Below, one piece after another: positions 838 to 55,631 of a stretch of DNA of 64,000 bases; the first letter of the stretch is position 1, and each line of letters opens with the position of its first letter. The DNA lies in the NCBI GenBank assembly GCA_030386875.1, contig CM059568.1, positions 14,324,316-14,388,315 of the forward strand. The letters are read 5' to 3'. Both the position numbers and the translations under genes were made by a program. Origin of the DNA: Morinoia aosen. Taxonomy: Eukaryota; Arthropoda; Malacostraca; Amphipoda; Talitridae. The notes beneath the pieces were generated by a model that was given only the letters and a program-made list of their open reading frames with translations, was not told where the DNA came from and did no database searches.

Positions 838-1123
838 TTCTCCACTTTTTGGGAGCCGGGAGTAAAGCTCTCTAGACAGTAATTTTTGTACATATCACAT
901 GTTTTGTTAATTTAATACGCAATAATTTGAAAAATCTAGTTTCATCTCTTCCTAAATGGCCGCCTGAAGCCTCAAAGATTCTCCACTTTTCGGGAGCTGG
1001 GAGAAGAGCTCTCTAGGCGATAGTTATTGTACATATCACATAATTCGTTAATTTCCTACGCGAGAATTGTGAAGATCAGATCTAGTTTCCTCGCTTGCTG
1101 ACCGGCCGCCTGAAGCCTCCAAG
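838..1123 (-). repeat. Tandem duplication of the P1 3' end
   Basis: Two imperfect direct copies, about 838-977 and 979-1123. Both contain TCCACTTTT, GGGAGC, GAGCTCTCTAG, TTGTACATATCACAT and GCCGCCTGAAGCCTC. The right copy is the real 3' end of P1: it holds the last codons, the TAG and the 3' UTR. The left copy repeats the same bases with substitutions and small indels and no longer keeps the P1 C-terminal codons. It is a decayed partial duplicate lying in the P1 3' flank. Confidence 0.8.
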
Positions 1124-1679
1124 CTTGAACTGTCGCCGTCTGACGGGTCCAAATCTGCCGGACCCGCGAGGTCGGGCAGGGCTGCGAGCGACGCGGTGGC
1201 CGATGTTGGAGTCCGACTCTGTGTAGTCAGTGAATGTTCCAACATCAGCTGCTTCAGGTTCAGAGTCGTAATAGTAATCAGGGTCTTGTTCGAATCCCAC
1301 GGCGTTAGGGTCCGACCCGGCTCCTTCTGCAACGCCAGCTTCCACGGCGTCAAATTGGGTCTCGGCATCGCCCGCAAAATCCACCGCATCCTCGAAAGTT
1401 GGGTCTTCTTGACCGAGCTGCGGCATGGGCGCCGCCGTGGCGAAAGCCACACATGCAGCCACGGTAACGAGTTTCATTGCGATCTGGAACAAATAGAGAA
1501 CTTGGTTATAAATTGATGAATTTCCTCCTGAAGCTCGTTTACATTGAGGTATTGAGAATTAATTCCAAAAGAATGCAAATTTTGATTATTGTTCAGAAAA
1601 GAGTTTGTGCTGGTGAAGGAACACGAACAAATATGAAATAAGATCGTTCATTTCTTCTATTAATACTCACCATGTTCAT
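1082..1679 (-). CDS. P1: secreted acidic-propeptide / Arg-rich peptide precursor
   Basis: Two coding exons are inferred: 1671-1679 (Met-Asn-Met, then donor GTGAGT) and 1082-1483 (acceptor TTTGTTCCAG), joined in phase 0 over a 187-bp intron. The product is 136 aa. Residues 1-20 form a signal peptide with a hydrophobic core and an A-T-A cleavage site before A-P-M-P. Residues 21-103 are a strongly acidic propeptide with about 20 Asp/Glu and a Tyr triplet. The propeptide ends in H-R-V-A-R, a minimal furin-type R-x-x-R site. The last 33 residues have nine Arg, two Lys and no acidic residue, and end in S-K-R-G-N. This layout is typical of cationic host-defence peptide precursors, where the acidic part masks the basic peptide. 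I recognise no named family. An antimicrobial role is inference; a matrix-binding or signalling peptide remains possible. P2 is its close paralogue. Confidence 0.82.
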
Positions 1680-1820
1680 TTTTGTAGTTTCGTAGTTATG
1701 AATTCTTGAGTACAGTTGCAATACTTGAGATAGCAGTTGCTGAAATGGCAGCAGGTCAGATTGTAGTTGTTGTCTGCTTGACTCGATGAGTGCAATTGAC
1801 TTTCGGAGGCAAGCGCTCGC

Positions 1821-1828
1821 CTTATATA
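1821..1828 (-). promoter_or_regulatory. TATA box of P1
   Basis: TATATAAG on the minus strand, about 150 nt upstream of the P1 start codon. A start site some 30 nt downstream would give a 5' UTR of about 115 nt. No clear kappa-B-type site was recognised by eye in the adjacent upstream sequence. Confidence 0.65.
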
Positions 1829-1859
1829 CAAGTCGGCCGCCAATGCACGAGCGGGCCAC

Positions 1860-3417: not shown

Positions 3418-3660
3418 CGATCGACGCCGATGTTAACTGATATAAACTATAACGAGCCGATGTTAACTCTTATAAATTCATGTAGCCAGATGTAGACCAA
3501 TGCAAAATAAGCTAATTCATTAAAACTTACGCAAGCCGATGTAAACTTATGTATACCAACGCAGGCCGATAAAAAGCGATGTTAGCTGATTTTAACTGAT
3601 ATAGACCGATGCAAACCAACACAAAGTGACATTAATTGATGTAAACTGATGCTGCAAGCC
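3418..3660. repeat. Degenerate short-period repeat (GATGTAAAC-like)
   Basis: Many loose copies of CCGATGTTAACTGATATAAA-like words (GATGTTAAC, GATGTAAAC, GATGCAAACC) follow each other with irregular spacing. It reads as an old, decayed minisatellite of roughly 15-20 bp period. It has no coding capacity. Confidence 0.6.
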
Positions 3661-6158: not shown

Positions 6159-6161
6159 GTA

Positions 6162-6780: not shown

Positions 6781-6876
6781 GTTTTCAGGAGCTAGGAGAA
6801 GAGCTCTCTAGGCGATAATTCTTGTACATATCGCATAATTCGTTAATTTACTACACGAGAATTGTGAAGATCAGAT

Positions 6877-7450
6877 CTAGTTTCCTCGCTTGCTGACCGG
6901 CCGCCTGAAGCCTCCGAGTTTGAACTGCCGCCGTCTGACGGGTCCAAATCTGCCGGACCCGCGAGGTCGGGCAGGGCTGCGAGCGGCGCGGTGGCCGATG
7001 TTGGAGTCCGTCTCTGTGTAGTCAGTGAATGTTCCAACATCGGCTGCTTCAGGTTCAGAGTCGTAATAGTAATCTGGGTCTTGGGCGTTAGGGTCCGACT
7101 CGGCTCCTTCTGCAACGCCAGCTTCCACGGCGTCAAATTGGGTCTCGGCATCGCCGGCAAAATCCACCGCATCCTCGAAAGTTGGGTCTTCTTGACCGAG
7201 CTGGGGCATGGGCGCTGCCGCAGCGAAAGCCACGCACGCCAATAAGGCAGTAATTTTCAAGGCGAACTGCAAGAAAAATTTTTTTAGCAATTTCTCCCAT
7301 ACTTTTTGTGAAGCTTCAAATCTGATTTCGATATCACGCCAAAGGCAGTACAAAAAGATGGTTTAAAAAGGCGAAATCTTATATCAAAGCATCACATCGC
7401 GATAATGCAGAAAATTTGTCACTTTTTTGAGTCTAACTCACCATGTTCAT
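6877..7450 (-). CDS. P2: paralogue of P1, Arg-rich peptide precursor
   Basis: Coding exons 7442-7450 (Met-Asn-Met, donor GTGAGT) and 6877-7266 (acceptor TTCTTGCAG) are joined in phase 0 over a 175-bp intron. The product is 132 aa. A 20-residue signal peptide ends A-A-A before A-P-M-P. A 79-residue propeptide with about 21 Asp/Glu ends in H-R-A-A-R. The 33-residue Arg-rich C-terminus is identical in protein to that of P1. Against P1 the propeptide lacks four residues (V-G-F-E) and has a few substitutions. The mature part differs only by three synonymous changes. The signal peptide and intron have diverged much more than the rest. The role is inferred as in P1: a secreted cationic peptide, perhaps antimicrobial. 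Confidence 0.82.
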
Positions 7451-14644: not shown

Positions 14645-16590
14645 TGTTAGGAAAGATTTAATTTTAGAAATTTAACTAATATTGTGCTAACTGATTGGTG
14701 CTCTTGTGTTTTGGGGTCATGTCGAGAATAATCAATTTAGCGAATGATTTAACGAATTAAAACATGAGAATTTAGGAAAATGGTAATTATGATTTCATTC
14801 TGCGTTTTTTAGAATTTAGGGAAATTATAATTATGTGTTATAAAATTTTATTTTTGTTGATTAAAATTCCAGCGGTGCGGAGGTGTAGTCTCTTCAACAT
14901 TTGTGTGTGTTACAAGCCAGAATGTCTGGACGGGTGTGTGTGGTGAGCCCATAAAGGATGTGTTGTTTCAGAAAGGGTGTGTTGTTTCAGGCAGGGAGTG
15001 TGTAACTCTATCGAGAGGGGAGAAATAACAATCTCAACGGTTGAGCACTAAGACGTTCGAAAGTGCTGACGCCTTGGTCCAGGCGATAGCTGTGTATATT
15101 ATGTTCTCAAGATTTTTGGCTATACAAGCAGTCTGCTGGCCCTCGGCGGGTACCGCATGCTGTGTGGGTTAATGGCACAATCTCAAACTCCATACACAGT
15201 GCTCGACAGATTTATGGCAAGCACTTGAGCGTGAAAAGGAAACTCTCAGAAATAGTCGGAGGGCTAACGTTGAGATCGGCGGTCCTGCAAACCCTCGAGA
15301 GGGAGGAGGCTGCTAAGTTACGTCAGAAGGCTCTAGGCCAATACCACGACATCAATATGGTGGGAAAGTAGTTGAAGCTAAGGAACACGAATGAGGCTTT
15401 AGCTGCGAAACAAGAAGGGCATTCGAACATGACGTAGAAGCTTCTAAGTGTGTGATTGGCCATGCGTGAACTAGAACACCGCTTTCTCGCGAACAAGTGG
15501 GTAGAGCTGATGAGAAAAATTTAGTCTTGCGTCGGCGATCGTCGGATATAGTACGTGTTAAAAATAGGAGGTGTTGAAAATTACCCTGAAAATATGTGAC
15601 ATAGATATCAACACAGGGAGTTAAACTTATCAAAAATTTCGCTTAATAAAATAGTCTCCGTTTTTCCACAGAGGGTAAATTGCAGACCTGGCTAAAGCGG
15701 GGAAATCATTCTGAAGATGCCACATTAAGTGGGGAGGGTAAGAGTGATGTAATTACCTCTGGAGAAAATATTTTGAAATAGATATGATAAAAGTGTGTGG
15801 CCTTTTGTTGAAGTGAAGATTGGAATATTTAAGGGAACTTCATTAGCACGACTAGAAGTAATGAGTATTTAACTTTCATCGTGCAGGCGGGGAGGTTTTT
15901 TTTTGTCATCGGCTTGGAAGAAAGGGAGATCATGGGTCAAGATAACGAAGCGGGACGAGCAGTGTGATATCAGCAATAGACATTTTGAGCTGTGCATAAG
16001 GCAAAAGTTGGAACTGAAGCTGTGTTGTTTAATGAATGTATGTTTGAAGTGACACCACCTCCAGCACTGTTAGAATATGAACATGTTGTAGGGCTCATGT
16101 ATCAGGACCTGTGTGATTAACGTACGGGGATATGCTGGCCAGCGGTAGCATTTATTGTCATTCTGTTATGTAAGCTGTTTAACACATGAAATCTCTAGAA
16201 TACCATTACTCAATTTACACCAGTTCTAATGCCATACATTGCGTGCGTTTATCGATGTTCTGTATGATGTATTGCCGTAAATTATAAATTAAGTGAATTT
16301 TCACGTGTATAAAGTCCCCCCCCAAATTTAGTAGCAAGCAGCCCCTCATCATAACTGATGCGCTCTGAAAAACGCGCATTGAGTAAGTCGAGTTCAACGT
16401 ACATCGGTGAGTACTGCCCAATTTTAGTATACACATTTTGTAGTAGTGTTGATTTGTTTTGGGCTTGCCCATAAATTTTCCTTGTGTTTCCTGTGCATTT
16501 TATTGAGGTATGCCAACCCCTCAAGCGAGCATTCGGTCTTCTCATTAGTGTAAATTAATGAGAGACGAGGCAGACAGCCTTCTCGTGACA
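14645..16590 (+). repeat. 5' LTR (1946 bp)
   Basis: Begins TGTTAGG and ends GTGACA. It is nearly identical to 24231-26175. It contains AATAAA at about 15644 and TATAAA at about 16304, which could serve RNA processing or initiation; the U3/R/U5 borders cannot be set from sequence alone. Short open frames inside it are identical in both LTRs and are not genes. The LTR is long for this family. Confidence 0.93.
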
Positions 16591-16598
16591 ACTCAATT

Positions 16599-16616
16599 TG
16601 GCAAAGGTCAACGCGA
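16599..16616 (+). other. Candidate primer-binding site
   Basis: TGGCAAAGGTCAACGCGA begins 8 nt after the LTR end. The leading TGG would pair with a tRNA 3' CCA. The donor tRNA cannot be named here, and the 8-nt offset is larger than is common. Confidence 0.5.
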
Positions 16617-16959
16617 TCGCTTTGTAATTTCTGTGAATTTGTGAGTGTAGTATAATAAGTGCATTGTATTTTTGTTTGGATTGTTTTCATGTGCAAAACG
16701 TACAAATTTCAGTAGAGGCACATAACTCGTAGTATAAAATTTTCTGTATTCCGGGGTGAGAAGCCAGCAAGCGCACTACCATACAGCTAAAGAAGTGAAA
16801 GTGTTTATAAAAGTGATGAGATGCAGTGAGAAAATTCTAGTGTGTTTACGCGATTAATTCAAAGTGTCAGTGAGATTTCACAGTGAGTAAGTTTAAAATT
16901 ATTTGAGTGATCGCAAATTTTTGAGTTTTGGAGAAGGTGAATTGGAGAAGATCGACACT

Positions 16960-17979
16960 ATGCCTGCGCGCGGGAGGAGAAACAACGACCGCAGAAATGC
17001 GCCAGCAATGCCACCACAGCCCGAAGAGGAAGCCGTTAACATGCCTGTGGTAACGAGTTGCGTGGGTGCCATTGGGGCCAAGTTTAGGAGAGGCGACAAT
17101 GTGGGGGAACATATGGCAAGATTGAAGTTTTTGACGGGTAATCTGAATAACAGTGAGCAGGTGAAAGCCTTCTTCCTATGCCTAGGTCAACAAGAGGCAA
17201 AGGAGTGCAATCTAATAATTGATACACTAACGAACCTACGAGATGCAGAAAACTGGTTGCGCTCTTACGACGACCAGGTCGAACATCCAACTCAAGCGCT
17301 GTTTGAAATAGTGACCAAGAAGCAAACAAGCCGGGAAGGAGTGTCAGAGTACCTGACGCGCCTGGAAAGGCTGTACAACGAGAATTATCTGGAACATCCG
17401 GAACGAATCCTTGTAGATTTGATGTGGCTCGGATTAAGGGAGAACATCACAAGACCATTTCGAAGTGATGCGCGACCTACGACAGTACAAGAACTGAGAG
17501 ACATGGCAATCGAGGTGGAAAATCGACGGATAGTACCAGTGCCAAGGGAAACGACAGAGAAGAGGGAACCGGAGAGAGAAAGAGCGCAGCGAAGCGAGAG
17601 GAGGCCACAGCATGAGACTGCACGTGTCGGCCATACGATGCGGCATTCACCACAACGGCCTAGAGGGTACCGCCAGGAAGTGCCACCCTGGAGAGAAAGG
17701 AACAGACAGACACGCCACTCTCCTTATCATCGAAGAGGAAATTATGAAGCACCCCACTGGAGCGAAAAGGGCAGACTTAGGAGTCAGCAGCACCAAATAT
17801 ACTACGCAAGAAAGCCACAGCCGCATCCGGAAGCACCACCTGCACCTGCAGTGGATTTAGCACAGTATAGAGCAGTGCCACCGCCGTGCGTCAACTGTGG
17901 TAAATTTGGGCACCTAAGAGCTGATTTCAGAGAGCAACATTTTGCAGGACAGCCAAAAAACGGGATAGGAGACCGTTAG
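16960..17979 (+). CDS. gag: Gag of the Ty3/Gypsy element
   Basis: 339 aa from the first ATG of the frame; the open frame extends slightly upstream without an ATG. A retrotransposon gag-like helical region spans roughly residues 60-190, with the motif T-S-R-E-G-V-S-E-Y-L. A long Arg/Pro/Glu-rich linker follows. A CCHC-type zinc knuckle sits at about 310-323 but reads C-x2-C-G-K-F-G-H-x4-F, so the last cysteine is phenylalanine; one base (TGC to TTC) would explain this. The role is particle assembly and RNA binding. The frame stops at TAG 17977-17979, just after the slippery site used to reach pol. Confidence 0.88.
   Translation: MPARGRRNNDRRNAPAMPPQPEEEAVNMPVVTSCVGAIGAKFRRGDNVGEHMARLKFLTGNLNNSEQVKAFFLCLGQQEAKECNLIIDTLTNLRDAENWLRSYDDQVEHPTQALFEIVTKKQTSREGVSEYLTRLERLYNENYLEHPERILVDLMWLGLRENITRPFRSDARPTTVQELRDMAIEVENRRIVPVPRETTEKREPERERAQRSERRPQHETARVGHTMRHSPQRPRGYRQEVPPWRERNRQTRHSPYHRRGNYEAPHWSEKGRLRSQQHQIYYARKPQPHPEAPPAPAVDLAQYRAVPPPCVNCGKFGHLRADFREQHFAGQPKNGIGDR
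17955..17961 (+). promoter_or_regulatory. -1 ribosomal frameshift site, A AAA AAC
   Basis: The heptamer lies in the correct phase relative to gag (ccA AAA AAC). Slipping back one base enters the pol frame, which is open from before this point to 21656. Six nt downstream, GGAG (17968-17971) can pair with CTCC (17980-17983), and GGGAT (17962-17966) with ATCCC (17992-17996). These give a modest stem-loop. The heptamer type is a well-known slippery sequence in retroelements. Confidence 0.8.
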
Positions 17980-20900
17980 CTCCGATAATAAATCCCAGCG
18001 TTATACTCCAAGTGAATGGTGCACCTGTTACCGCACTTCTTGACACCGGAGCAAATATATGCTTGGTAAAAGAGCGTGTGGTTGCGGGGATTAAAAATGC
18101 TAGTGTAAAAGGAACATCCACTGCATTAAAGACAATTGGAGAGGAACCCGTACCAGTGCTGGGAAAGATTAATGTGCCAATCAAAGTTAACGGTCAGAAA
18201 ATTGTACAGAGATGCTTTGTTGTGCGGGAAAATGCATTCCCAGGAGACCTGCTAATAGGAGTGGAAGTAATGAACAAAGTCAACGCAAAGCTAGACTTCG
18301 GAAAATGTAGGGCATCATTCTTTGGCACTTACGTGAACATGTTTTCAGCACCAGGACACGCTTCTCCGAAAATTCTGTGTGTGACGAGGGAAGAAACATC
18401 TGTAACCCTCGCTGAGGACATTACAGTGAAGCCTCGCGCACAAACCATGGTAAAGTGTCGAGCAGATGGCAAGTTTGATGGAAAGGAAGTAATTTTAGAG
18501 CCTAGAATTAAGTGGGCGCCGTACGTCGGAGCCACCGCTGCGAGGGTACAAAATGTGTATGTTTTGATGCCTGTGCTTAACCCTTTTGCCGAGGAAATTG
18601 CTCTAACTGAAGGAGCAATAGTTGCAACATGCCACGAAATCTCGAATGAAAGTGCGACTACAGAAGAGAATAAAGATGGAACCAGTGAAGCAGAAAATCT
18701 CCGCAGAGAGAAGCGCTTTCAGCAAATTAATGAGCTTGACCTCAGTCACTTGGATGCTGAAAAACAAGAACAAGTTAGGAACCTGCTGAAGGAATATAAC
18801 AAGACAATTAGTGCAGACGAGATGGATATTGGCCACGTCAAGGGAGTGAAATACAAAATTTTGCTGAGTGATTACAGGCCAATTCAAACGAAAGGATGGC
18901 GTATTCCATACACCAGCCAAGAAATTATTGATAAGAAGGTCTCGGAGATGATTGAAAGTGGAGTTGTGCAAGAGAGCACAAGTGCTTGGAAAAATCCGCT
19001 CGTACTCGTAAGGAAACCTGGAGGAGGCCACAGAATTTGCCTTGATCTGCGAGCTGTGAACATGCGAGTGGTGAACGAACATTACCCGATTCCCAACATC
19101 ATAGGAACCCTGGAAGAAGTTGCTGGGAAAGAGTACTATTCCATTGTCGATGCAAAATCAGCCTTCCATCAAATTGAGCTAGATGAAGAAAGTAAGCAGT
19201 ACACGGCATTTCAGACTCGACAAGGCAACTTCGAGTACGCTCGGCTGCCTATGGGACTCAAGTGCTCAACATCAGTGTACCAGAGAGTAATTTGTCATGT
19301 TCTGAAAAGGCAGCTTGGAAAATTCGCCGCTATTTATTTGGACGATGTGTGCGTTAGCTCTATGACTTTTGAGAAGCACCTAGAAAATTTGAGGGAAGTG
19401 TTGCACGAATTTCAATGTGCCGGAGTCAAAATAGGCTTGGACAAGTGCAAATTTGCGCAAAAACAAGTGAAGTACCTAGGATGTTACATCAGTCGTGAGG
19501 GACTTGTTCCAGACCCCAAAAATGTTGAGGCCATGCAAAATTACCCTAGGCCCACAACCGCACGCAAAGTCCGCTCGTTTGTAGCAGCACTCAACTTCTA
19601 CCGGCGATTCATTCCGCATTTCGCTACAACAGCTGCACCTCTTAATGCGCTGACTAAAAAGGGGGCAAGATTCAAGTGGGAGGAAGTACACGAGCAAGCC
19701 TTCTGTAAACTTAAGCAGCTCATGATAGAAGCTCCAGTTCTGAAGAAACCTTCTCTAAATGAGACGTATTACTTGAGCTGTGATGCCTCAAATGAGGGCT
19801 CGGGCGCAGTGCTTGCTCAGAAATGTGAGGGTAAGGAACAACCGATTGGATACTTCAGCAAAAGATTCAATGATGCTGAAAAACGTTATTCAATTACGGA
19901 GCGTGAAGGGTTGGCAGTGGTTGCCGCTGTAAATCACTTCTCACCTTATCTGTACGGCAATAAATTTGTTGTGATCACAGATCACACTGCCCTCAAATAT
20001 TTGTTCAAAGGTAAGAACACCAGGAACAATAGAATTATGAGGTGGGCACTAACTCTCTCACAGTATGATTTTGAGGTAATTTATCGGCCTGGAGCTCAGA
20101 ACGTTGTACCCGACGCCTTGTCGAGAAATATTGCGAACGACAACGGAGAAGAGAATCCAGATGACGAAGCACCTAATACAGTGTTCGTCACGACGATGTT
20201 AGATGAAACTCCCAGCGTGCAAGAGGCGGAAAGTAGTTTGCAAAAAAAAAACGTGAGAGCAGAGCAATTGAAGGATCCTGTTTGGGGACCTGTACTGAGA
20301 TATCTTGAAGGTGACAAATTAGGGGACGCTCCAAGTCTCGCTCTAAAACCCGAAATCTTCACCGATGAAGGCATATTGTATTTCAGAAAGACACAACGAA
20401 AGCCTAATAGAACAAGGCACTTAATCGTTGTGCCAGACGCTCTGAGAGAAGCAGCAATAACGTTAGCGCATGATAGTACCATCGGTGCTCATCAAGGTCG
20501 TGCTAAAACGTGGAAAAAGCTCATGGAATTTGGGTACTGGATTAACATGTCGCGCGACGTTAACAAATACATCGATTCGTGCATGCAGTGCCAGAAACGT
20601 AAGATCAACAATCGCATTTGTGTTAGCATGGGTTCATTCCCTGATATTGACAAGCCTCTGGACAGAATAGGTGTTGATTTGATTGAAATGCCAGTCTCGA
20701 ATGAGGGCCACAAATACATCTTAACCGTGGTTGATCACTTCAGTAGATATGTCGCTGCTTTCCCACTCAGAAGCAAGACAACTGAGGAAGTGACTCGAGC
20801 GTTAACTAAATTCGTAACCACGTATGGCCCTGCGAAAACGCTCGTCTCAGACAGAGGTACAGAGTTCACATCAACATTGTTCCGTAACGTGTGCGAAAGA

Positions 20901-21656
20901 TTAAAAATAAAATACTACAACACATCAGCATATCATCCCCAATCAAACGGAATGACGGAACGTCAGAACAAGAACATCAAAACGGTTCTGTCTCACCTCG
21001 CAGCCAGCGATCAACCATCGTGGCATGATGCTTTGCCGTGGACTTGCTTGGCACTGAACACAAGTTTTCAGAGTGTTATTGAAGAAATACCGTATTATTT
21101 ATTTTTTGGTAGGGACGCTGAAATTCCTGTTGTTGACTGGCTGAAAACACCTCGCATGGATTATTCTCTTGGGGACAATTACAGTGCCGAGGTGAGCGCC
21201 CGACTTCACAATGCGTTCAAAGTAGTGAAGGCCAAGTCCAAGGCTTCACACGACAAGTCGGTGCAAATGAAGGAAAGAGGTGTGAAAAACAACCAGGTGG
21301 AGAGCGGAGACATTGTTTTGTTACACAATCCGACAGGAAAGGCCGAAGCTGCAAACGCGTGGCCTACCGACTGGTTAGGCCCCTATCGTGTCCTTGAAAG
21401 GAATGCCACAAATGCGACCATTAAAGCACTATATAGTAACCGACAAGAAAGGGTTCATTTGGATAGATTGAAAGTTGCTTTCCTACGGGGCGAGGCTTTT
21501 CCCGGCACGTCGGACGTCGCAGCTGAACCAGGGAATGGAAACGGATATGAAACTATGGAGAGAGAAGATGAAGACCTGAGGACAGAGAACCACGTAAGCG
21601 CGAGAGCTGCGTTCAAGGAGCGGCGAAGCTACAATTTGCGTTCAAGGTGTAGGTGA
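17955..21656 (+). CDS. pol: Pol of the Ty3/Gypsy element (PR-RT-RH-IN)
   Basis: Expressed by -1 frameshift; numbering here is from 18012 (1214 codons, no ATG needed). The protease has L-L-D-T-G-A at about 9-14. The reverse transcriptase has the S-I-V-D-A-K-S-A-F-H block and Y-L-D-D at 442-445. RNase H starts near D-A-S at 591. Integrase has an H-H-C-C zinc module with the first His near 820 and Cys at 857 and 860. Its catalytic triad is D889, D947 and E983, with D-x35-E spacing as expected. A G-P-Y motif lies near 1123. All key catalytic residues seen are intact and no stop interrupts the frame, so the enzyme may be functional. It provides reverse transcription and integration for the element. 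Confidence 0.94.
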   Translation, partial: KKRDRRPLAPIINPSVILQVNGAPVTALLDTGANICLVKERVVAGIKNASVKGTSTALKTIGEEPVPVLGKINVPIKVNGQKIVQRCFVVRENAFPGDLLIGVEVMNKVNAKLDFGKCRASFFGTYVNMFSAPGHASPKILCVTREETSVTLAEDITVKPRAQTMVKCRADGKFDGKEVILEPRIKWAPYVGATAARVQNVYVLMPVLNPFAEEIALTEGAIVATCHEISNESATTEENKDGTSEAENLRREKRFQQINELDLSHLDAEKQEQVRNLLKEYNKTISADEMDIGHVKGVKYKILLSDYRPIQTKGWRIPYTSQEIIDKKVSEMIESGVVQESTSAWKNPLVLVRKPGGGHRICLDLRAVNMRVVNEHYPIPNIIGTLEEVAGKEYYSIVDAKSAFHQIELDEESKQYTAFQTRQGNFEYARLPMGLKCSTSVYQRVICHVLKRQLGKFAAIYLDDVCVSSMTFEKHLENLREVLHEFQCAGVKIGLDKCKFAQKQVKYLGCYISREGLVPDPKNVEAMQNYPRPTTARKVRSFVAALNFYRRFIPHFATTAAPLNALTKKGARFKWEEVHEQAFCKLKQLMIEAPVLKKPSLNETYYLSCDASNEGSGAVLAQKCEGKEQPIGYFSKRFNDAEKRYSITEREGLAVVAAVNHFSPYLYGNKFVVITDHTALKYLFKGKNTRNNRIMRWALTLSQYDFEVIYRPGAQNVVPDALSRNIANDNGEENPDDEAPNTVFVTTMLDETPSVQEAESSLQKKNVRAEQLKDPVWGPVLRYLEGDKLGDAPSLALKPEIFTDEGILYFRKTQRKPNRTRHLIVVPDALREAAITLAHDSTIGAHQGRAKTWKKLMEFGYWINMSRDVNKYIDSCMQCQKRKINNRICVSMGSFPDIDKPLDRIGVDLIEMPVSNEGHKYILTVVDHFSRYVAAFPLRSKTTEEVTRALTKFVTTYGPAKTLVSDRGTEFTSTLFRNVCERLKIKYYNTSAYHPQSNGMTERQNKNIKTVLSHLAASDQPSWHDALPWTCLALNTSFQSVIEEIPYYLFFGRDAEIPVVDWLKTPRMDYSLGDNYSAEVSARLHNAFKVVKAKSKASHDKSVQMKERGVKNNQVESGDIVLLHNPTGKAEAANAWPTDWLGPYRVLERNATNATIKALYSNRQERVHLDRLKVAFLRGEAFPGTSDVAAEPGNGNGYETMEREDEDLRTENHVSARAAFKERRSYNLRSRCR

Positions 21657-24230
21657 ATTGCCACTTGGAAGCGAGCTGCAGTGGACTGAGATCATGCGTC
21701 ACCTTAACTTTGTGAAATGTGTTCTTGTGCGTTCAATTTTAGCAGAGCTCTTACGTGGGAGTGAGTTTTTCGCTGTATGCTTTAATCTAAATGTGTTCTT
21801 TAGTAGAATTGTACTATTCTAGTTGTGAATTAAAATTAGTCGCACTCACTAGAGTGAAATGCTTCGTTCAGTAAGAATGTGTTCCAGGTTATATCACTCC
21901 AACTTTCTGTGCTCACAAGAAATCTCGTGCATAACAAGACTCTTGTTCGAGTGATCTAGTTTGCACTATGCTTAATTCTCATGTTCTTTCTTGCTAAGTG
22001 AAGGGAAATTGAGAGTCATTAGGTTAACTTCGTGTGTTTCTCAAGAGGAGTACTTTGTTTCATTTGTAGGATGCTTATATTTTTCGCCAGCTTCTCGTGA
22101 AGCGCACGTAGCTCTAGCGAATGAATTAAGTTTAATCTGAAGTTCTTAGGCTGAGGCTATCTCAGGCTTGCTAATTTTATCAATACCGTTAGACCGTTCA
22201 TTTCATAACGGGGAAAATATGTTTAGTGTCGGATTAAAATTTGCGAATTCTTGCGTGCTGTAGTGTTGAATTTTCTGACTTTGTGTCTTTCTCTTGCCCT
22301 GAAAGAATATCGTAAACACGGTATTCCGGAAGGAATTATTCTGATCTTACTCTGTAGAGTGTAGTACGTTTCTTTTCAGACTTAAGGAATTAATTTCTTG
22401 GTAGAGTAGCGTAGTATGTACTTCAGCCCAAAACAGGTCAGAACAATTACATAACACGAATGCGTCTCGTGTAAGCAGCAATTAAGGAAGAATCACGTGG
22501 AATACAAGTAATTATTTACAAGACCAACGAACAGATAGGAACTGTACAAAATAGGGGATAAAGCGCACTTATATTGAAGTATTTAAAAGAATTGCACCAA
22601 TTCAAGCGCTGCAGTGAGAGGCAACAAAGACGAATGTATAGGCGGAAATTTGCAGGATGCTCAGAAGAATGTGGAAGGCACAAGTAATTGCCTCAGAGCC
22701 ACGCGTGGTCGCGCTGTGGCTGTGGACATTGGTCACTAACAAGCTGAACCAGGAAAGGGCATCTCAAGTAATTGGTGCCCTGACTTCGAAGTGTGTAGCA
22801 CCACAGAGCGACAAAATCAGCACCAGGAAGAAAGGAAGAGAATACGAAAATAAAGCAGAGGATGTTCTAGGGCGCCGTTATGTAATAGTGTTCAACAAAT
22901 GCTTTTGTATAATGGGTACCCAAATGAAGCAATAACAAGGCTTTTATATTATTTAGTGTTGAGACGAACTTAAGTTATTTGGAACTTGCATTGTGACATG
23001 AGCGCTTAGAAAGGCATTCCTGAAACTCGCATGCAAGTGTCCTGTGAAATTTTAACTAGGCAAATAATCACTTAGAATATTGAAGCCGCATTGAGGCATC
23101 TCTATTTATACGTGAAATGAAAATGTAAAAGAGATTTCGGCGGATAGGCTTTGAATGAAGCGGACGGTCTTCAGAGAATATTAACCCACGGAATTCTCGC
23201 ATAAATAAGAGTGTTCACTCGAATAAAATAAAAACATCATCTAGTGTCTACCAGATTCCACGTGACGTCAAGGGATACTGAGGGGGATTCTACAGGATAC
23301 CAGTGTGCACTACGCAGGATTATGCCTCGGAATACTTCAGCATTACTTCGTGGGATTGGAACCCCATCGCGAGGGGAGACTTAATCGAATAAAAAAAAAG
23401 TTATCGACGCTTCAACTCGTATTCTTCGACAGACCAACATAAGTTCCTGATTCGCCAATTCGTCTGATCAACGAAGCGGCATTCACGAGTAGTCTGACGA
23501 TTAAAATTTGAGTTCGAATATACGTCCTAAAATGTATGTGAAAGATTGTACTTAACATGATTTAGTGGTAACTTGAATCGTGATTATGATCCGTGTTACC
23601 GAATGAAATCGTGCAAGTAATGTGGTGTATAGAAATTTTATATGAGGCTGGATATTGGGATCATAATCCTTCCTTCTGAAAATGAGTACCTATCTTCAAC
23701 GCGTGTGTGATGGCATTGGAATGCCAGAAGAGAAAATGGAAGGACAGCAAACTCCGGCAACGATACCCAAGGAGTGAACAGCGAATCGTCAAAAGCAGCG
23801 TCAAGGAATGATAGAACAAAAGATGCAAACGGCTAGAGAGATCTGGAAGACAAAAACATCGACACTTGAGGATATTTGAGAATGTAGGAAATGTGTACAC
23901 TAAATTTTGTGAATGTTATTAGGATTTAGTACTCAAGTATTTAGTACGCACTTCAGTTCGGCGGGAAAACCAGACGCATCGGTTAGATGAAAATGACACA
24001 ATATATTACGCTGTGGCTGATTGTATTGTAATAAATAAGATTGTTAAATGTAATGTACCATGTTTCTGCGGAATTAATTTAGAACATAATTGGCTTAAGT
24101 AGATGTGTACCATTTGTGTCTTAAATTGGCTAATAATTCAGTTCAAATTGTTCAAATAAATAACATAACGCTAATACAAAAAAAAAAAAAAAATTGTCGA
24201 GTCAATTTTTTTTATGTAAAGGAGCGGGGA
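21657..24230 (+). other. Non-coding 3' internal region of the element
   Basis: About 2.5 kb between pol and the 3' LTR without an env-like or other convincing frame. The longest open frame (22657-22935) has no signal peptide or membrane segment. Near its end, AATAAA (24155-24160) precedes a run of 16 A (24178-24193), the layout of a polyadenylated RNA end. This may be captured transcript sequence. Confidence 0.75.
24218..24230 (+). other. Polypurine tract
   Basis: AAAGGAGCGGGGA lies directly before the 3' LTR. It is all purine except one C, and is the usual primer site for plus-strand synthesis. Confidence 0.8.
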
Positions 24231-30908: not shown

Positions 30909-31158
30909 GGGCCGCCGTCGCACGAAGACCAAATGGTAACGTTTCATCATAATTTTCTACAGTCAGCGGCACCAATCGGTCTGCCCAGCGCCCCGAAACC
31001 GACAGATTTCAGCCTTAGTTAATAATGGTATGACTAAGCTGGTCCCAAACTAAGGCTGAAATCTGACGGTTTTGTGGCGCTGGGCAGACCGATTGGTGCC
31101 GCTGACTGTAGAAAATTATGATGAAACGTTACCATTTGGTCTCCGTGGGACGGCGGCC
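30909..31158. mobile_element. Palindromic hairpin element (MITE-like)
   Basis: Two arms of about 110 bp (30909-31018 and 31048-31158) are near-perfect inverted copies, starting GGGCCGCCGTC and ending GACGGCGGCC, around a roughly 30-bp spacer. Examples of paired words are CAGCGGCACCAATCGGTCTG and its complement. No clear target duplication was found. Both strands give spurious open frames here. Confidence 0.8.
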
Positions 31159-34700: not shown

Positions 34701-36441
34701 CTGTGTAGCATTGATTTTTTGTTTCATGGGTTCTCGAATTTCCGTCTCCAGTCACTATTGCATACATAAGATTCTTTCTTTCATCTGAAAAAGCAACATT
34801 ATACATTCAGTGCCGCATTAGCCCTTTATTTGGTTTGAAATCAGACATGTTTACCACACAAGCACAATATTATGGTATTACGGTTGCACATCATCGGGTG
34901 TCGACAGGTAAGGTCCTTGCAACAAGCTAACGTAAGAGCTGAGACCGTGTAATAGCCCTAGCTTCCAGCGCCATCCACCGAGGCAATTGAATATTTTATA
35001 CAAGCATATCATTTATTCATAAACTGCTTATGTCTGAGAATTTGGAATGTGTGTGTTGAAGTAACAAGGTTTAATTCTTAACCTTCTACTTACATTTTCT
35101 CACAGGCAGAATCTTTTACTATAGCCTCTCGGAGGTACCACCCAATAAAATTACAGGCTTCTCCTCTCAAATATTGGTTTTTCTAGCTGAAATATCTTCA
35201 GCGATAACAAATATGCGTCGTAAATTCTTCGCTGCTTCATTTTTTCTGCAAAACTGACTTAGTTCAAAAAATTTTAATTCAACATTTTGTAAATTTATTT
35301 CTACCATAGTTTTTTTTATAATATCCTTACTATTTTGAGACGTTCCCTTCATACAGAGCAGTTTTAGAAGAACGTGAGGCCCTTTTTGAACTACGAACAT
35401 TTCAGAAAAAAAAGACAAATAAAGTGCATTAAAACCCCATTTGAAACCTACGTTCATTCCTTAATCATTTGCACAAAAATCTGCCAAACTTTTAATCCAG
35501 AGCATTTGTCTAAATCGTCAGTAAAACTTCTTCTAGTTAACAGTTTTGCAAAGTCTTTTGATAGACGAATGATCGATGTGTGTAGCCTTCTTGGAGCAGG
35601 GATTCAATCAAGTTTTTATCACTATTTAGCCCGAAAAAATGGAAAACAGTTTGCAACAATGAGCTTTGAGCAACTTGTGCTGCCTAAAGTCAGGCTGTCA
35701 CACGTAATATTTGTCTTGGAATTTCCTCCGCAAAGAAAGTAATGATCCACTGGCGTTGAAGTCACCTTCGCTGAATGCTACGTCAATTGAGGATTTTAAC
35801 GATGAAATTCGATCGAACCTGACCTGCTTCTCTGGATTCCCAAATGCTTGATTAATTCAATGACGTGACCAGGTTTTCAACGTAACCTGTACGCTAGAAA
35901 AAAAGGCACATTAATTTGTAAAAAATTTCTTTGATTAAAATGAATTTGATCTAATTTTCTTAAGCCTGTAAATACAATAGACAAATTTCATCAATTCATG
36001 ATTAATTTATTGAATTTCATTATTTATTAATGTTTTCTTTGATATTTTTTGTTAATGTATTCATTCATTTATTAATTTAAAGTAGTTCATTTGTCTTACA
36101 AGTGAACAATTTACTAATTCATACCAATTTATTTATTCATCAATAAAAAGAATAACTCTTGTATATATGGATTACTTTCTTTAATTTTTTTTTCCTTTTC
36201 ATATGATTTAACAAATCAGCCGCTTATCAACATCAAAGAGGCTCAAGTAATCCTACATCCGGCATCAAAGGTTGCAGAAGCTATCGCTCTGACTACAAAC
36301 GCATCTACACAACTGGTTTTCACGCAGCCAAATCCCAACCATGTGCATTCAACGTCGCAGTTCCCGCACCCGAAGACCAGGACATTATTGGCATCTGGTC
36401 TACCAGAGAGCACGCTGTCCTGTTGTGGTTGCGTGCAGGAT
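31796..36441. other. No gene seen (4.6 kb)
   Basis: AT-rich. The open frame at 35374-35742 (+, 122 codons) is the longest but has no recognisable domain, signal peptide or splice context. Confidence 0.45.
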
Positions 36442-39700: not shown

Positions 39701-40444
39701 TTCAATCAACCTTGTTTCAGCAATGCCCGAACTGTATTCTCTGTGCTTGCAGCTATATTCGGTAATCCCACCCCTTCTTTTCACTACTTCCCACTGCATC
39801 AAAACGTCTAAAAAGAACATTTCCTTTCAAATTTTTTCTTTGTGATGGAAACAGAACCAAAGTCCTTTCAATTGGATTTTAATATCATTAATTTTCCAGA
39901 TTGTGCTTGCTCTCATCGCAATTACACTTGTGTGCATTGCCAGGGGATCAAAATTTCTAAGAGAACACTTCCTTACAAACTTCTGTCTCTGTGATGGTAG
40001 CAGAATCCAAGTCTTCTCGAGGTGTTTTTACATCATTAATTTTTCCAGATCGTCCTTGCTGTCATCGCAAATGTTCCCTGCATTACCTCGGGATTAAAAC
40101 TTCTAAAAAAACATTTCTGTTTAAACTTCTTTGTCTGCGATAGTAACAGAATCCAAGTCCTTTCAATGTGTTCTTAAAATGATTAATTTTTCCAGATCGC
40201 GCTTGCTCTCATCGCAATACTGGCGTGCATCTCTATCGTGGCAGCGGCGCCAGATCCGGATCCAGCTCCGCAATTCGGCCGCGGTATCGGCATCGGAATA
40301 GGGTTCGGGCGCGGCATTGGCCGCGGCTTCGGCCGTGGCGGGCGGAGGGGCGGCTTTGGGAGAAGCTTCGGCCGCCTCCGCAGGTTTCGCAGACCCTTTT
40401 TCGGGGGCGGTCGCCGAAGAGGCTTTGGATTTTTCTTCGGATAA
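36725..40444 (+). CDS. P3: secreted Gly/Arg-rich peptide
   Basis: Exon 1 is 36725-36733 (Met-Arg-Leu, donor GTGAGC, in context CACCATGAGA). Exon 2 is 40196-40444 (acceptor AATTTTTCCAG). They are joined in phase 0 over a 3462-bp intron to give 85 aa. Residues 1-20 form a signal peptide ending V-A-A before A-P-D-P. The secreted part starts A-P-D-P-D-P-A-P-Q-F-G. It continues as 54 residues of Gly, Arg, Phe and Ile with 15 Arg and no acidic residue, and ends G-F-F-F-G. Gly-rich cationic peptides of this type occur among crustacean antimicrobial peptides; I do not assign it to a named one. Exon 1 was chosen because its three-codon length, donor and phase match the other four genes. Its distance makes it the least certain join. 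Transcript data would decide. Confidence 0.72.
39752..40195 (+). repeat. Tandem copies of the P3 intron-end/exon-start module
   Basis: Units of about 148 bp precede P3 exon 2. Starts after TTTTCCAG lie at 39900 and 40049, then the real exon at 40196. A more decayed copy of the intron part runs from about 39752 to 39899. The first two exon starts encode I-V-L-A-L-I-A-I and I-V-L-A-V-I-A-N, against I-A-L-A-L-I-A-I in P3. After about 15 codons they turn back into intron-like sequence (AAACTTCTAAAA... TTTCAATG... TTCCAG), so they lack the Gly/Arg region. Confidence 0.82.
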
Positions 40445-45012: not shown

Positions 45013-47787
45013 ATGAGGCTTGTGAGTAAAATTACAACTATTTGTAAATATGTATAAATGTTTAATATTATTTATAATTATTTATATAAATATTTCTAAA
45101 CATTTATGAGTCGATTGTACACACAGGTTTTCAGATAACAGAGGCATTAATTCAAATAAATTTCAATATATTATACATTGAATTAGTTAAATTTAACTAT
45201 GCTGCGTTTTTTATCTCTTCGACGAAGGCTTTAGTTGTTCCTCATGATCATTTAAATTACTCCTAATATAAGTTTTATTGATGTTAAGCCTAACATTCTT
45301 AAGATCGTCCCAAAATGTTATTAATGCTATACTGACTTTCATTCACGAATAAATTTCTTTTATGGGAAACAAAACTAAACTGAAAATCACATAATTGAAC
45401 AGGGAAAAATGTACTAGTTTTTCCAGTGTGTTTGGTAGCAGTACAAGTCAAAACTTACTAGTTTTACCTGCTTACATTTTATGGCCATCTTTCACAGAGC
45501 AATTTTTAACTTTGCACGCGTTGAAGAGAAACGGAAGTTCATTGTGGAATTAGAGTATACACAGCAAATAATTAAATTTTTCATAAAAAAACGCATTTTT
45601 GAAACCGAGAGACTTAATTCAATGAAGAAACGAACTTATGAAGCTTTGTTTGCATTATCACATTTGTTATCACTTTTTATATAATTAGGAAGAAAAATCA
45701 CTAGAGTAGTTTTTCAGTAAATTTTCTAGTACTATTCAATAGTCACTGAATAAGTTGAGTTAAAATTTTCAGTAAATAGTGCAAAACAATATTAATTTTA
45801 AAATGGACGTAAATCATTCAAAGTTTAGACCCCGTGACTTGAAAACTTCGTTTGTAGCGTGTGAATATCTCCCTGACATTTGAAAATGGGTTAATATCAC
45901 ATTTCTTCCCTGGTGCACAATTACAGTTTTAGAAATGCAGAATAAACACCGCTATGACACGGCACGGGTAATCCAGCCAGTAGCGTAGAATATGGCAACA
46001 GACACCAGTCAAGTGGCCCATTCTTGACTCGTCCCCAAGTCCCGGGCAGTCCGACATCAATCACGTACATGATGACTCTAAGAAACACATTAATGTAAAT
46101 GATAACTGCAAGAAACACATTAACGTAAATGATAACTGTAAGAAACACATTAACGTAAATGATAACTGTAAGAAACACAATAACGTAAATGATGACTGTA
46201 AAAAACACATTGATGTAAATGATAACTCTAAGAAACGCATTAATGTAAATGATAACTGTAAGAAACACATTAACGTAAATGATAACTGTAAGAAACACAA
46301 TAACGTAAATGATGACCGTAAAAAACACATTAATGTAAATGATAACTCTAAGAAACGCATTAATGTAAATGATAACTGTAAGAAACACATTAACGTAAAT
46401 GATAACTGTAAGAAACACCTTTACGGTCATCATTTCCTCAGTACATTTATGCTGACACAATGTTTGTAAGTGCAAGTGTTACACATAGTGTGGTGTCATT
46501 ATTTTTCTATTTTTTCTCATTATTGCTAATATTGGGGTCATACATGCAATGTTGTCGACAGTAACTTTAGCCAACAAAATCCAGACGCACCACCGTGGTT
46601 GAGCGTTATTAGGAATTGCTTGATTGTTCAATTTCTCAGGGCTTCTCCCCTTTGGGGATGAGAGTATTGTACGAAGGCTCACCCTTAGTGCTCAGTTTAG
46701 GCGGGAGCAGAGACCAAAATATGGGCGAAATTGCGTAAATTCATCCAAGAGCGAAAAAATTATGGATCTCGTGAATAAAGTTGATCAATATTTCGGCTAA
46801 CAACGAACATATAAGTTGTATACAATGCTGCTTCCAAAATTAATTTTTTTCATTTGGTTCTATCAAATTAGGTATTCAACATTAGGTATAATATAGTTAA
46901 ATAAAGGTACATTGGATTGGAATAAAAGTTTCCTCTGACTTTCTGAGCTGAAATTTTATAATGATTGAATTAAAGTAACTTTCACACTGTATTTTCGAAG
47001 AGGAGTTATTATTAATTAAACATTTTATTTCAGATTAAAAAAATGTTGTTCATAAACTATATATGGCGCGCCTATGCTTGAATTTGTATCATGTGAAAAT
47101 CCCGTTACAAATTTTTTGAAACATACACATTTCCTGGACATTTTTGCAAGTGTCATTTTTATTTCACCTAGCACCATCGTCGACTGGTTACTGATTAATC
47201 AAATCAAAATCATCATTAGTATATCATTAACGACACATCTAATATTTAACTACCCCACCTCTTTATTGAAAATATCCATCTCTTAGCAGTTATTTCACAT
47301 AATAATTATTTTAATGTAATATTCATTTTACAAAGAAATTATTATAATATATAATAATTATTTTGCAAAACAACTATTTCAATATCAATAGTTATTTTAC
47401 ATGATAATCATTTTAATATTATTTATTTTCTGTAACAATCATATTAATGTCAATATCAATTTTGCATAATAATTATTTTAATGTTAATACTAATTTTATA
47501 TAATTATTATTTTATTATTAATAGGTATTTTACACGATAATTTTCACTTGCAGTTCACGTTGGTGCTGTTCGCAATGGTCGTTACCGCTATGCTGGAAGT
47601 CGCATCACCGAGCCCAGCTCCAGAGCCACAGTTCGGCGCTGTGGTCGGCGGGAGGCCGGGCAATGGCGGACGGTTCACCAAGCCCACAGGACGCTTCAGC
47701 AGGATCAGGAGGAGAAATTTCGCGTATGCTGGACGCCGCCGACGGCACAGACATCTAAAAAGACATTATATCCTCCATTTCAACTAG
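45013..47787 (+). CDS. P4: secreted Arg-rich peptide
   Basis: Exon 1 is 45013-45021 (Met-Arg-Leu, donor GTGAGT, in context TTAAAATGAGG). Exon 2 is 47554-47787 (acceptor TTTTCACTTGCAG). They are joined in phase 0 over a 2532-bp intron to give 80 aa. A 20-residue signal peptide ends E-V-A before S-P-S-P. The 60-residue secreted part begins S-P-S-P-A-P-E-P-Q-F-G, sharing the P-Q-F-G start of P3. It has a Gly-rich middle and a very basic end with I-R-R-R and R-R-R-R-H-R-H. In total there are 13 Arg, 2 Lys and a single Glu. R-R-R motifs could be further processing sites. A host-defence role is inferred. An upstream ATG at 44857 would open a competing frame if transcription starts before it; the true start site was not located. 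Confidence 0.75.
46080..46420. repeat. 30-bp tandem repeat inside the P4 intron
   Basis: About 11 copies of AAGAAACACATTAACGTAAA followed by TGATAACTGT. Variants recur every four units, giving a 120-bp higher-order period. Two overlapping minus-strand frames over it, with Leu/Ile/Phe/Val repeats, are artefacts of the 30-bp period. Confidence 0.88.
47300..47540. repeat. AT-rich degenerate repeat before P4 exon 2
   Basis: Repeated words such as AATAATTATTTTAATGTTAAT recur every roughly 50-70 bp up to the splice acceptor of P4 exon 2. Confidence 0.55.
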
Positions 47788-53025: not shown

Positions 53026-53118
53026 AACATCACGTATTTCGGCCCCGAACATCACGTATCTCGTCACCAAACGTCACGTATCTCGTCACCAAACGTCACG
53101 TATCTCGTCAGAAAACGT
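53026..53118. repeat. 22-bp tandem repeat (CACGTATCTCGTC)
   Basis: Four to five copies of CACGTATCTCGTCACCAAAC followed by GT. The terminal copies are degraded. Confidence 0.75.
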
Positions 53119-53926
53119 CGCGGATCTTATTACGGTAAATCACGTCTCTCATTCCTAAATACCAAACGTATAAAACGTGCGCACGTGTTTGGCGTACGGC
53201 CTACTTCACTAAAAAAGATGCGCTCTCGAGGATAATTAACTGACGAAGTTCAAGCTTGAGACAATTGTCGCTTGAGACAAATTATTACTTGAAGCTAATC
53301 TTTCAACAGTGTAAATTTTAGGAGAGAATCCCATGAGTGATTTTGTTGAAGTTATCCGCGTATAATGCGCTGTGGTACAGACAATTCACATACGAATGTC
53401 ATTCTGCTTTACTGTCAGGACTTGAAGAGTGCGAAGTTCTTGAGAGTGCTATTCTACCAAATTTCGCTGAAGGTTATGGCGAGCATTAAGTAAATATTTC
53501 CTTCGTAATGAGGACAGCATGAGGAATGTAAAAAGGAATTCTGAGGCAATTGATTGTCAGACAGTGTTCATTCTCTGCCCGTAAATCGATTCGTGGTGTT
53601 TCTTCATCCGTTTTGATTGCTAATGAACAACTCCAATTTGAAATTCGTCAACGTAATGTGTTGCTGCAGGGAACAATAACAATAAATAATTTTTGCGCAT
53701 AATTGATGATTTACTTCAACCAATAAAGCTGTTAACTTTTTCCAGGTTCATCATCCAACCTATTCTGTAGCTTTCCTAAATACCGTTAGATACTTTCGTT
53801 TCTTCAACTGCCATGACCAAAACAATTTTTTTTTAAGTACACACATTGAAAAAGATGCAAACCTAACACGATTCTATCAAATTTAATGAAACCTCCTAAC
53901 CAGCCCTAGCAATTTGACAAAATATC
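53119..53926. other. No gene seen; P5 3' flank
   Basis: Intergenic DNA beyond the P5 polyadenylation signal. Confidence 0.45.
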
Positions 53927-53932
53927 TTTATT
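53927..53932 (-). terminator. Polyadenylation signal of P5
   Basis: AATAAA on the minus strand, about 108 nt after the P5 stop codon. Confidence 0.6.
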
Positions 53933-54039
53933 TTCGAACTCCCGCGAAAAAAAAAGACGTTAATTGCTAACATACCATTTCTTAAGTTAAGCAATGCCCG
54001 GGTCGTATCACATTCGTCAGGAAAGAAAACATGCACATC

Positions 54040-55631
54040 TTATCCGTAGTATCCGTATCCTCCGCGGAATCCTCCAAATCCTCCTCTGTATCCTCCGAAG
54101 CCTCCGAATCCTCCGAATCCTCCATATCCACCGTATCCTCCTCTGAAGCCGTAGTGCGGCTCAGCGTCGGGGTAGGGGAAGGCTGTGGCGTACGCCACAC
54201 ACGCCACGGCCACCAGCAGAGCCAAAAGGAACTGGAGAAGACCATAAACAACTGAAAATCTTTTTCGACACAATTGTCCAGTGTGTTTTTATTTTCCATG
54301 TGGAGTTTCACAACGTATATGATTCAAAACTAAAAACTTATATATGTCACCGGTCTGTGTAAAGTTCGTATTATATTTTGGTAAACAATGAAAGGGCGCA
54401 GTCGCATTTATTAACAATCAGCTACCCACTTGTCGCACTGCCTGAAATAGTTCAGATATTTTTTATATTAATATTATCTTCATGTCTATCTCCGTCCAAC
54501 AGAACAGCTGACGTCAGGTCATTTTTCTTGAGCAAGTGAAAAAAAAAATCAGTTCAAGAAATGTTCTTTGATTGGAATGAAAACACTTCTAGTTTTCGCA
54601 CTTTTTTACGCGCTTTGCCTCTAATCGACCAGAGCGTTTATTGTTTTTCTTTATTATTTGATGGTTGCATTTAAAGGATTTACGTTGCCATCAGCCCGAA
54701 CATTGCCACACCAAGACGAATGAACTTGTAATTCTAATCATCATCATACAATAGAAGCACAAGATGGATCAATCGTGCTTGGTTATATTATGTAATGACG
54801 TTGTTCCTCACTAGGACAACGATTTTGATGTTGAGAGATGCTGATTTTGATTATTTTAATGGTGTGTTTTGTTAGCTATGTGTAGCAGAATTGAAAAACC
54901 GACTTTATAGCTCGAATACATTTTTATCTTCTTTTAGAAGAGTGAAAAATATAATGGCACGGTAATTTGTTACCTCGTACGCTAAAATCCACTCAGGACA
55001 AAATAGTGAAGTAAATGAAATGCCATTCATTCCTACCGGTACGGGAAAGAGCAATTTGACCTAATGGTACACATTTGTCTCAAAACGTAGTCACCGTTTT
55101 AAAGTATTTAACACACAGCAGCGAATTGTACTCCAGCAAATGGGTGGCTAACCTTAGCTCGAGAGCTATGTAGAATGGTAGAAAGTACTAAGCATAATAA
55201 GTCCATTTCTAGAGCGTGACCACTTGTCCAAGCGTGCCTCCATAATAACATGCGTACTGCAAATGTGAGGGCCGAAAGAAACAATATGGACTAGAACAAT
55301 GGGTGCATATTTAGGTGCATGTACGTGAACCTTATCTAAACTATCCCACCCTCTCGCGGTAAGCACGGATTACTGTTGGATATTAAATCGTTAAAGGTAC
55401 TCTATCGAAGGACAAACATAGATTTACACGATGATTGAATGAACCGTAATGCAAAACATTGGAAAAAGAAGCAGGGCATTTTTACATAATTCATAATTAC
55501 TTCGACTGGCCAATACCATTCTCCGAGTAGCGCCTTCAATATTTCAAGTACACCGACACCAAACAGCAGCTCGTGCGGAGCAACAGAAAAGAGCGCAAGT
55601 CTCTACCACTCGATGAGCTCACCAGCTTCAT
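54040..55631 (-). CDS. P5: secreted Gly/Tyr/Phe-rich peptide
   Basis: Exon 1 is 55623-55631 (Met-Lys-Leu, donor GTGAGC, in context CAACATGAAG). Exon 2 is 54040-54231 (acceptor TCTTCTCCAG). They are joined in phase 0 over a 1391-bp intron to give 66 aa. A 20-residue signal peptide ends A-T-A before F-P-Y-P. The 46-residue secreted part starts F-P-Y-P-D-A-E-P-H-Y-G and continues as G-G-Y and G-G-F repeats with three Arg, ending G-Y-Y-G. Roughly half of it is glycine. GGY-type peptides include nematode and arthropod antimicrobial peptides as well as cuticle or matrix proteins, so either role is possible. It is the least cationic of the five. Ser-rich and Glu/Asp-rich open frames on either strand over exon 2 are shadows of the Gly repeats. 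Confidence 0.82.

Follow-up and report, generated by a model that had tools for sequence, protein, structure and literature searches.

Do the genes for small secreted peptides that lie close together in the talitrid amphipod Morinoia aosen belong to one family, and what might their products do? The question is raised by a 64,000-nucleotide stretch of contig CM059568.1 (assembly GCA_030386875.1, positions 14,324,316 to 14,388,315, forward strand; hereafter the window), in which an earlier note, made without database searches, had proposed five such genes, P1 to P5. On the evidence of the sequence, these gene models form a real, partly conserved cluster. P1 to P4 are read here as one family, in which P1 and P2 would carry an acidic segment between a common start and a cationic end, and P5 is best placed apart from this family. 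Host defence is the preferred function, at a probability of about one half, as suggested by the composition of the peptides.

Five Two-Exon Gene Models

Each of the five genes follows the same model of a coding exon 1 of three codons, one phase-0 intron and an exon 2. Exon 1 encodes MNM in P1 (1671..1679, minus strand) and P2 (7442..7450, minus), MRL in P3 (36725..36733, plus) and P4 (45013..45021, plus), and MKL in P5 (55623..55631, minus). The donor is GTGAGT in P1, P2 and P4 and GTGAGC in P3 and P5, and the introns measure 187, 175, 3462, 2532 and 1391 nucleotides (nt) from P1 to P5. Every exon 2 (5/5) is preceded by its own exon 1 on the strand that it occupies, and exactly 17 of its residues precede the predicted mature start, which reads AP, AP, AP, SP and FP, respectively. 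In P1, exon 2 (1082..1483) comprises the 17 signal residues, an acidic segment, an R-V-A-R site and a 33-residue cationic C-terminus. Its counterpart in P2 (6877..7266) appears as a recent duplicate or converted copy. P3 exon 2 (40196..40444) encodes a Gly/Arg/Phe-rich cationic peptide, P4 exon 2 (47554..47787) an Arg-rich cationic peptide with the motif RFxxxRRRxFxxxGxRR, and P5 exon 2 (54040..54231) a Gly/Tyr/Phe-rich peptide that follows FPYPDAEPHYG. By eye, TATATAAGG was found about 150 nt upstream of P1 exon 1, TTATAAAGG about 120 nt upstream of P2 exon 1 and CTTTAAAAG about 100 nt upstream of P5 exon 1.

The recurrence of this layout was compared with Markov simulations covering both strands of the first 60,400 bases. 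The exon-1 and exon-2 patterns are independent of each other, and both classes were defined after the five genes were known and are thus shaped by the finding. The pattern M[KRN][LM]|GTGAGY occurred five times against a mean of 0.05 and a maximum of 1 in 60 simulations; a looser ATG-NNN-NNN-GTGAGY occurred six times (1.0 expected, maximum 4), and the narrower M[KR]L|GTGAGY three times (0.03 expected). The exon-2 pattern was found in P1, P3, P4 and P5, that is, four times against 0.025 expected (40 simulations); P2 was missed, its acceptor holding 8 pyrimidines in 15 where the cut-off was 9. The two-exon layout proposed for all five genes, with its donor, phase-0 intron and 17 following residues, is consequently confirmed far above chance. 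The accompanying proposal of a 20-residue signal peptide agrees with all five models and is less secure for P1. Within its exon 2 lies a further ATG in frame (IA-MKLV), which is shared by the orthologue in Trinorchestia longiramus (IT-MKF) and replaced by TTG in P2. Translation of P1 could begin at this codon, without exon 1. Because of this internal ATG, and because the T. longiramus protein reads GNM in place of MNM, the P1 signal is regarded as uncertain.

Orthologues in Trinorchestia longiramus

A protein search with P2 (81 candidates) returned a single relative, T. longiramus FHG87_011299, to which 94% of P2 aligns at 66% identity (E 1.4e-46). A profile search with P3 and P5, in which 7990 candidates were scored, gave 19 matches with E up to 10, the best of them being T. 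longiramus FHG87_011300 (E 1.6e-13). The latter is the orthologue of P3 and begins MRLI, with 20 residues before SPDPEPAPQFG. At the protein level, both orthologues continue across the predicted joins (NM|I in the P1 counterpart) and show 17 residues after them. Both are unnamed hypothetical proteins, and they differ from the models of the window in that FHG87_011299 has the aforementioned GNM and a longer N-terminus. Its 47 additional residues resemble, by eye, the in-frame 5' leader of P1 and apparently represent in-frame 5' untranslated sequence. The annotation of the T. longiramus genome drew on RNA-seq and Iso-seq hints (PMC7062882).

The two proteins bear consecutive locus tags, and each derives from a contig of 115,979 bases. 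Because of the equal size and the consecutive tags, a single contig is assumed, and genes of the P1/P2 type and the P3 type are most likely neighbours in T. longiramus, as they are in the window. Outside support for the predicted joins comes from these proteins of another species for P1/P2 and P3, and the joins of P4 and P5 are supported from the window only. A protein search for relatives of P4 gave no candidate sharing three words. Pfam returned no family above cut-off for P1 to P5; the sole match with E up to 1 was Keratin_2_head to P3 (11 bits, cut-off 28.2).

Relationships Among the Peptides

The secreted parts of P3 and P4 align with a score of 81, compared with 33.3 +/- 6.4 for shuffled sequences, a value reached in 0 of 3000 shuffles. 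The C-terminal 33 residues of P1 align with P4 at a score of 51 (28.2 +/- 5.4; 3 of 3000 shuffles), including an ungapped 19-residue match, in one of seven secreted-part comparisons. FHG87_011300 matches both P3 and P4 (0 of 2000 shuffles each) and carries RFxxxRRRxFxxxGxRR, which arose in 14 of 100,000 shuffles of its sequence. This cationic C-terminal motif is common to P1, P2, P4 and FHG87_011300. It was fixed after the proteins had been aligned, which renders its value in P4 (0 of 100,000 shuffles) circular; the match in FHG87_011300 had been seen earlier, too, and the alignment of the P1 C-terminus with P4 and the presence of the motif in FHG87_011300 are the fairer tests.

At the other end of the secreted part, the strict pattern P-x-P-[QH]-[FYL]-G was observed in P1, P2, P3 and P4 (4 against a mean of 0.1 in 30 simulations). 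The mature start of these four is P-x-P-Q-[FL]-G, compared with A-E-P-H-Y-G in P5. The start that the earlier note had ascribed to P3, P4 and P5 as P-x-P-(Q/H)-(F/Y)-G is therefore retained for P3 and P4, extended to P1 and P2, and withdrawn for P5.

The signal peptides show a different pattern. P4 has the least similar of the five signals and gave no significant alignment with that of P1 (p 0.35), and the signal of P5 resembles those of P1 to P3. A signal cassette joined to unrelated cargo was rejected in view of the homology of P3 and P4, the core that P1/P2 share with P4 and the position of the P4 signal as the least similar. A conserved cassette with hypervariable cargo does not fit P1 and P2 either: their signals have diverged more than their secreted parts, which is the reverse of the pattern that it predicts. 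The proposal of one ancestral signal cassette joined to diverse peptides in one locus survives in that the locus contains one gene set, and is judged the poorer reading as to the cassette. Likewise, secreted parts that differ sharply from each other describe P5, which is set apart, and do not describe the homologous pair P3/P4 or the C-terminal core that P1 and P2 have in common with P4.

The Acidic Segment of P1 and P2

The P1 and P2 proteins are 92% identical. Both contain an acidic segment of 79-83 residues ending in a furin-type R-x-x-R, and all P1-type proteins (3/3) retain R-x-x-R|S (RVAR, RAAR, RVVR). The computed charge is about -19 for the acidic segment, about +10.5 for the C-terminal peptide and -8.1 for the uncleaved mature protein. 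Between P1 and FHG87_011299, identity amounts to 14/19 in the signal, 25/49 in the first acidic part, 27/30 in the second acidic part and 27/37 in the C-terminus, with 27/29 at residues 100-128, the first 29 C-terminal positions.

At the DNA level, high identity of P1 and P2, with 49 to 59 of 60 positions per segment, is limited to the stretch between about 1417 and 998 (the lowest segment including 9 gap columns). The signal-coding segment shows 43/60, and values of mostly 25 to 39/60 were obtained for the promoter, the intron and the flank past 998. Codons 4-20 exhibit 8 non-synonymous and 5 synonymous codon differences, and codons 21-136, which encode the secreted part, 3 non-synonymous and 7 synonymous ones. 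The near-identity of the secreted block suggests either gene conversion or constraint by selection. Since it is confined to one block while promoter, intron and signal diverge, gene conversion is the probable cause. As delimited by a comparison of the window with itself, the block 987-1450 is 93% identical to 6782-7233. In addition, a tandem repeat (838-1123, 81% identity) duplicates the terminal part of P1 exon 2 together with the adjoining 3' flank; its degenerate second copy lies downstream, at 838..980 on the minus strand.

P5 and Its Relatives

P5 contains 45.7% Gly and 17.4% Tyr and shows the sequence pattern of crustacean peptides named neuropeptide-like proteins (NLPs), with a signal peptide, a short Pro/acidic stretch and Gly/Tyr/Phe-rich repeats. 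Aligned as a whole, signal included, it scored above all 2000 shuffles with each of six chosen relatives (6/6), a result inflated by their selection from the 19 profile matches. Cherax NLP 28, Procambarus NLP 31 and Halocaridina SK128_010510 resemble P5 in the signal, in P-x-P-[DE]-x-E-P and in the Gly/Tyr/Phe-rich stretch, but their E-values are weak (2.1e-3, 3.1 and 3.2), and the Procambarus and Halocaridina proteins differ in having two repeats split by basic sites. Six P5-like peptides from short environmental contigs (P0003 to P0007 and P0011) resemble one another and show MKLL at the start, a Pro/acidic stretch with [DE]PH and Gly/Tyr/Phe repeats. Pfam searches of 7 of the 20 retrieved relatives gave none above cut-off. 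Below it were DIM protein in the signal-peptide regions of P0002 and P0017 (E 0.34 and 0.14), Foot protein 3 and DUF5437 for P0003 (E 0.006-0.007), DUF4148 for P0008 and P0016 (E 0.19 and 0.27) and Trypan_PARP for P0017 (E 0.13).

Host Defence and Other Possible Functions

Cationic secreted mature peptides are predicted for P3 (net charge +12.8), P4 (+13.8) and, if it is cleaved off, the C-peptide of P1/P2. Defence is suggested by peptides that are small, secreted and positively charged, by a furin-type site at the end of a masking segment, and by the clustering and duplication of the genes. The peptides are short and repetitive and are probably disordered. In the proposed mechanism, P3 and P4 would be secreted as ready-made cationic peptides and P1 and P2 as pro-proteins whose acidic segment masks the charge of the C-peptide, until a furin-like protease frees the 33-residue cationic peptide. 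P5 would add a peptide rich in Gly and Tyr that is akin to the neuropeptide-like ones of other crustaceans. The likeliest joint role of the products would be host defence: in haemocytes or at an epithelium, they would bind to the anionic surfaces of microbes. Tandem duplication, small internal repeats and, in P1/P2, gene conversion appear to be the ways in which the cluster changes. A wider proposal can be put forward only tentatively, with the odds against it: amphipods may carry an undescribed host-defence family built on one core, with a P-x-P-Q-F-G start and an RFxxxRRRxFxxxGxRR end, in which one exon acquired, or else lost, a large acidic segment with a furin-type site. This would turn an always-active peptide into a latent, charge-masked pro-protein, and both forms would be kept in one cluster, the latent one homogenised by gene conversion.

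If the defence reading is true, Amphipoda would gain a new peptide family in which masked and unmasked forms of one cationic core stand side by side. Crustacean defence peptides come mainly from decapods, and in 2016 armadillidin was described as the only one known from another crustacean group (PMC5031766). In the passages covered, Amphipoda are represented by ALF and crustin transcripts, with one entry in a review table (PMC7017220, PMC9409781). Among the matches listed, open-access literature on amphipod or talitrid antimicrobial, armadillidin, neuropeptide-like and Gly-rich cuticular proteins contained no description of these peptides. Armadillidins of terrestrial isopods, which are also Peracarida, are comparable as linear, Gly-rich and Arg-containing peptides with a signal, and are reported from Oniscidea only (PMC7017220). 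They differ in a conserved signal of 19 residues, compared with 20 in the P1 to P5 models, and in several GGGX repeats (mean 5.1, range 3 to 7; PMC7017220); P3 has one GGG and P1, P2, P4 and P5 have none, so that the armadillidin repeat pattern is absent from all five. A second parallel is the nlp-29 cluster of Caenorhabditis elegans, whose peptides are Gly-rich. It is likewise a small cluster of genes for secreted peptides that evolves by duplication, although in a nematode and with induction by fungal infection (PMC2453101).

Several observations weigh against a defence family that includes all of these genes. The P1 C-terminus gave no significant alignment with P3 (p 0.34) or with FHG87_011300 (246 of 2000 shuffles). 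The full C-terminal motif is missing in P3, apparently through an indel, in P5 and in FHG87_011299, the last of which has the core RFxxxRRRxF. The secreted part of P5 bears no more than a weak likeness to those of the other peptides (p 0.15 with the P1 C-terminus, 0.05 with P3 and 0.03 with P4), and its net charge is just +0.8. The second acidic block is as conserved between P1 and FHG87_011299 as the cationic end (27/30 against 27/37) and therefore exceeds the need of a mere neutralising spacer. The 1-kb regions upstream of the five genes contained no kB-type site; with 0.14 (strict) to 0.85 expected, this is a weak point. GATA, ecdysone-type and TATA sites were not enriched in the same regions (GATA 12 against 11.2 expected; TATA 2 against 2.3). 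The defence reading draws on composition. Finally, the exon layout is that typical of cuticle-protein genes in Drosophila (PMC1626468).

This layout leads to the alternative of structural cuticle peptides, small Gly/Tyr/Arg-rich proteins in which Tyr would be cross-linked and charged segments would bind chitin or one another. A single phase-0 intron within the first signal-peptide codons, as present in 5/5 models, marks cuticle genes. A phase-0 intron at position 5 was recorded in 88 Drosophila genes, of which 38 encode cuticle constituents and 80 have no other intron; for two cuticle genes of Tenebrio, the intron was placed at positions 4 and 5 by inference (PMC1626468). The Gly and Tyr content of P5 and the lack of kB-type sites in the upstream regions fit as well. 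However, the same source denies that intron position defines one gene family, and the pairs in its arthropod set, reduced to 20, were at most 32.1% identical (PMC1626468). A short first exon alone was accordingly rejected as proof of common origin: the layout recurs across arthropods (PMC1626468) and is therefore neither proof of a single family nor a pointer to defence, and if anything it points to cuticle. Unlike arthropod cuticle proteins, P1 to P5 show no cuticle domain among Pfam families above cut-off, and neither the charge of +13 to +14 in P3 and P4 nor the conserved pro-protein cleavage site of P1/P2 is obviously needed in cuticle. A cuticular role is a serious alternative, though less probable than defence. 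Less probable again, yet still to be reckoned with, is that P1 and P2 are calcium-binding acidic matrix proteins similar to orchestin, with their cationic relatives as partner matrix peptides. The computed mature P1 (12.56 kDa, isoelectric point 4.54) comes close to orchestin at about 12.4 kDa and an isoelectric point of about 4.4, a likeness in size and acidity between secreted talitrid proteins. The conserved acidic block (27/30) has Ser and Tyr amid acidic residues. In talitrids, orchestin is a phosphorylated matrix protein of the calcium concretions, and the posterior caeca serve Orchestia cavimana as its calcium store (PMC3335408); a matrix function would bear on talitrid calcium storage. 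Against it, the P2 search retrieved T. longiramus alone (1 protein in 81 candidates, from a database that may not include orchestin), and a conserved R-x-x-R with a +10.5 tail is unexpected in a calcium binder.

Least probable, and only barely credible, are secreted signalling peptides, that is, true neuropeptide-like precursors cut at basic sites. Outside amphipods, the closest relatives of P5 that bear a name are crayfish proteins automatically labelled neuropeptide-like proteins 28 and 31, and the Procambarus and Halocaridina shrimp proteins carry RRKR or GKR between their repeats. P5, however, lacks both dibasic sites and an amidation signal, and the name says little, as the C. elegans nlp-29 group is separated from likely bona fide neuropeptide nlp genes (PMC2453101). 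A further alternative, also unlikely, concerns the models rather than the function: in P4 and P5, exon 2 might be joined to another first exon, or the gene might be silent. The length of both introns, the failure to find relatives of P4, the two joins lacking outside support and the absence of a TATAWAWR site from the 1 kb upstream of P4 are in line with this. Conversely, the M[KR]L|GTGAGY excess (3 against 0.03) argues for the models, and the intron of P3 is even longer, yet its orthologue begins MRLI.

Surroundings of the Locus

The intron of P3 contains a tandem array (39791..40219, plus strand; period 146-149, 2.9 copies), whose last copy includes the exon-2 acceptor and the start of the signal sequence. 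Earlier units keep CCAG and IVLAxIA-like heads at 39900 and 40049, which could be duplicated and decayed exon-2 heads or alternative acceptors. Between P2 and P3 lies a Gypsy-like long terminal repeat retrotransposon (14645-26175) whose two direct repeats, each about 1.95 kb long, share 99.8% identity. Matches to protease, reverse transcriptase, RNase H and integrase exceed the Pfam cut-offs, and a gag-like frame stays below. The element is a recent insertion that adds about 11.5 kb to the distance between the two genes. Rfam gave 0 matches in the whole window. Two palindromes were identified by identity to their own reverse complement, at 57979-58282 (about 305 bases, 86%) and 30910-31158 (about 255 bases, 89%), in addition to an inverted pair at 31835-32284 and 35459-35902 (73%). 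A minisatellite of 30-base units (60927-64000, about 102 copies) runs off the end of the window, and the open frames of more than 1000 residues within it are repeat artefacts.

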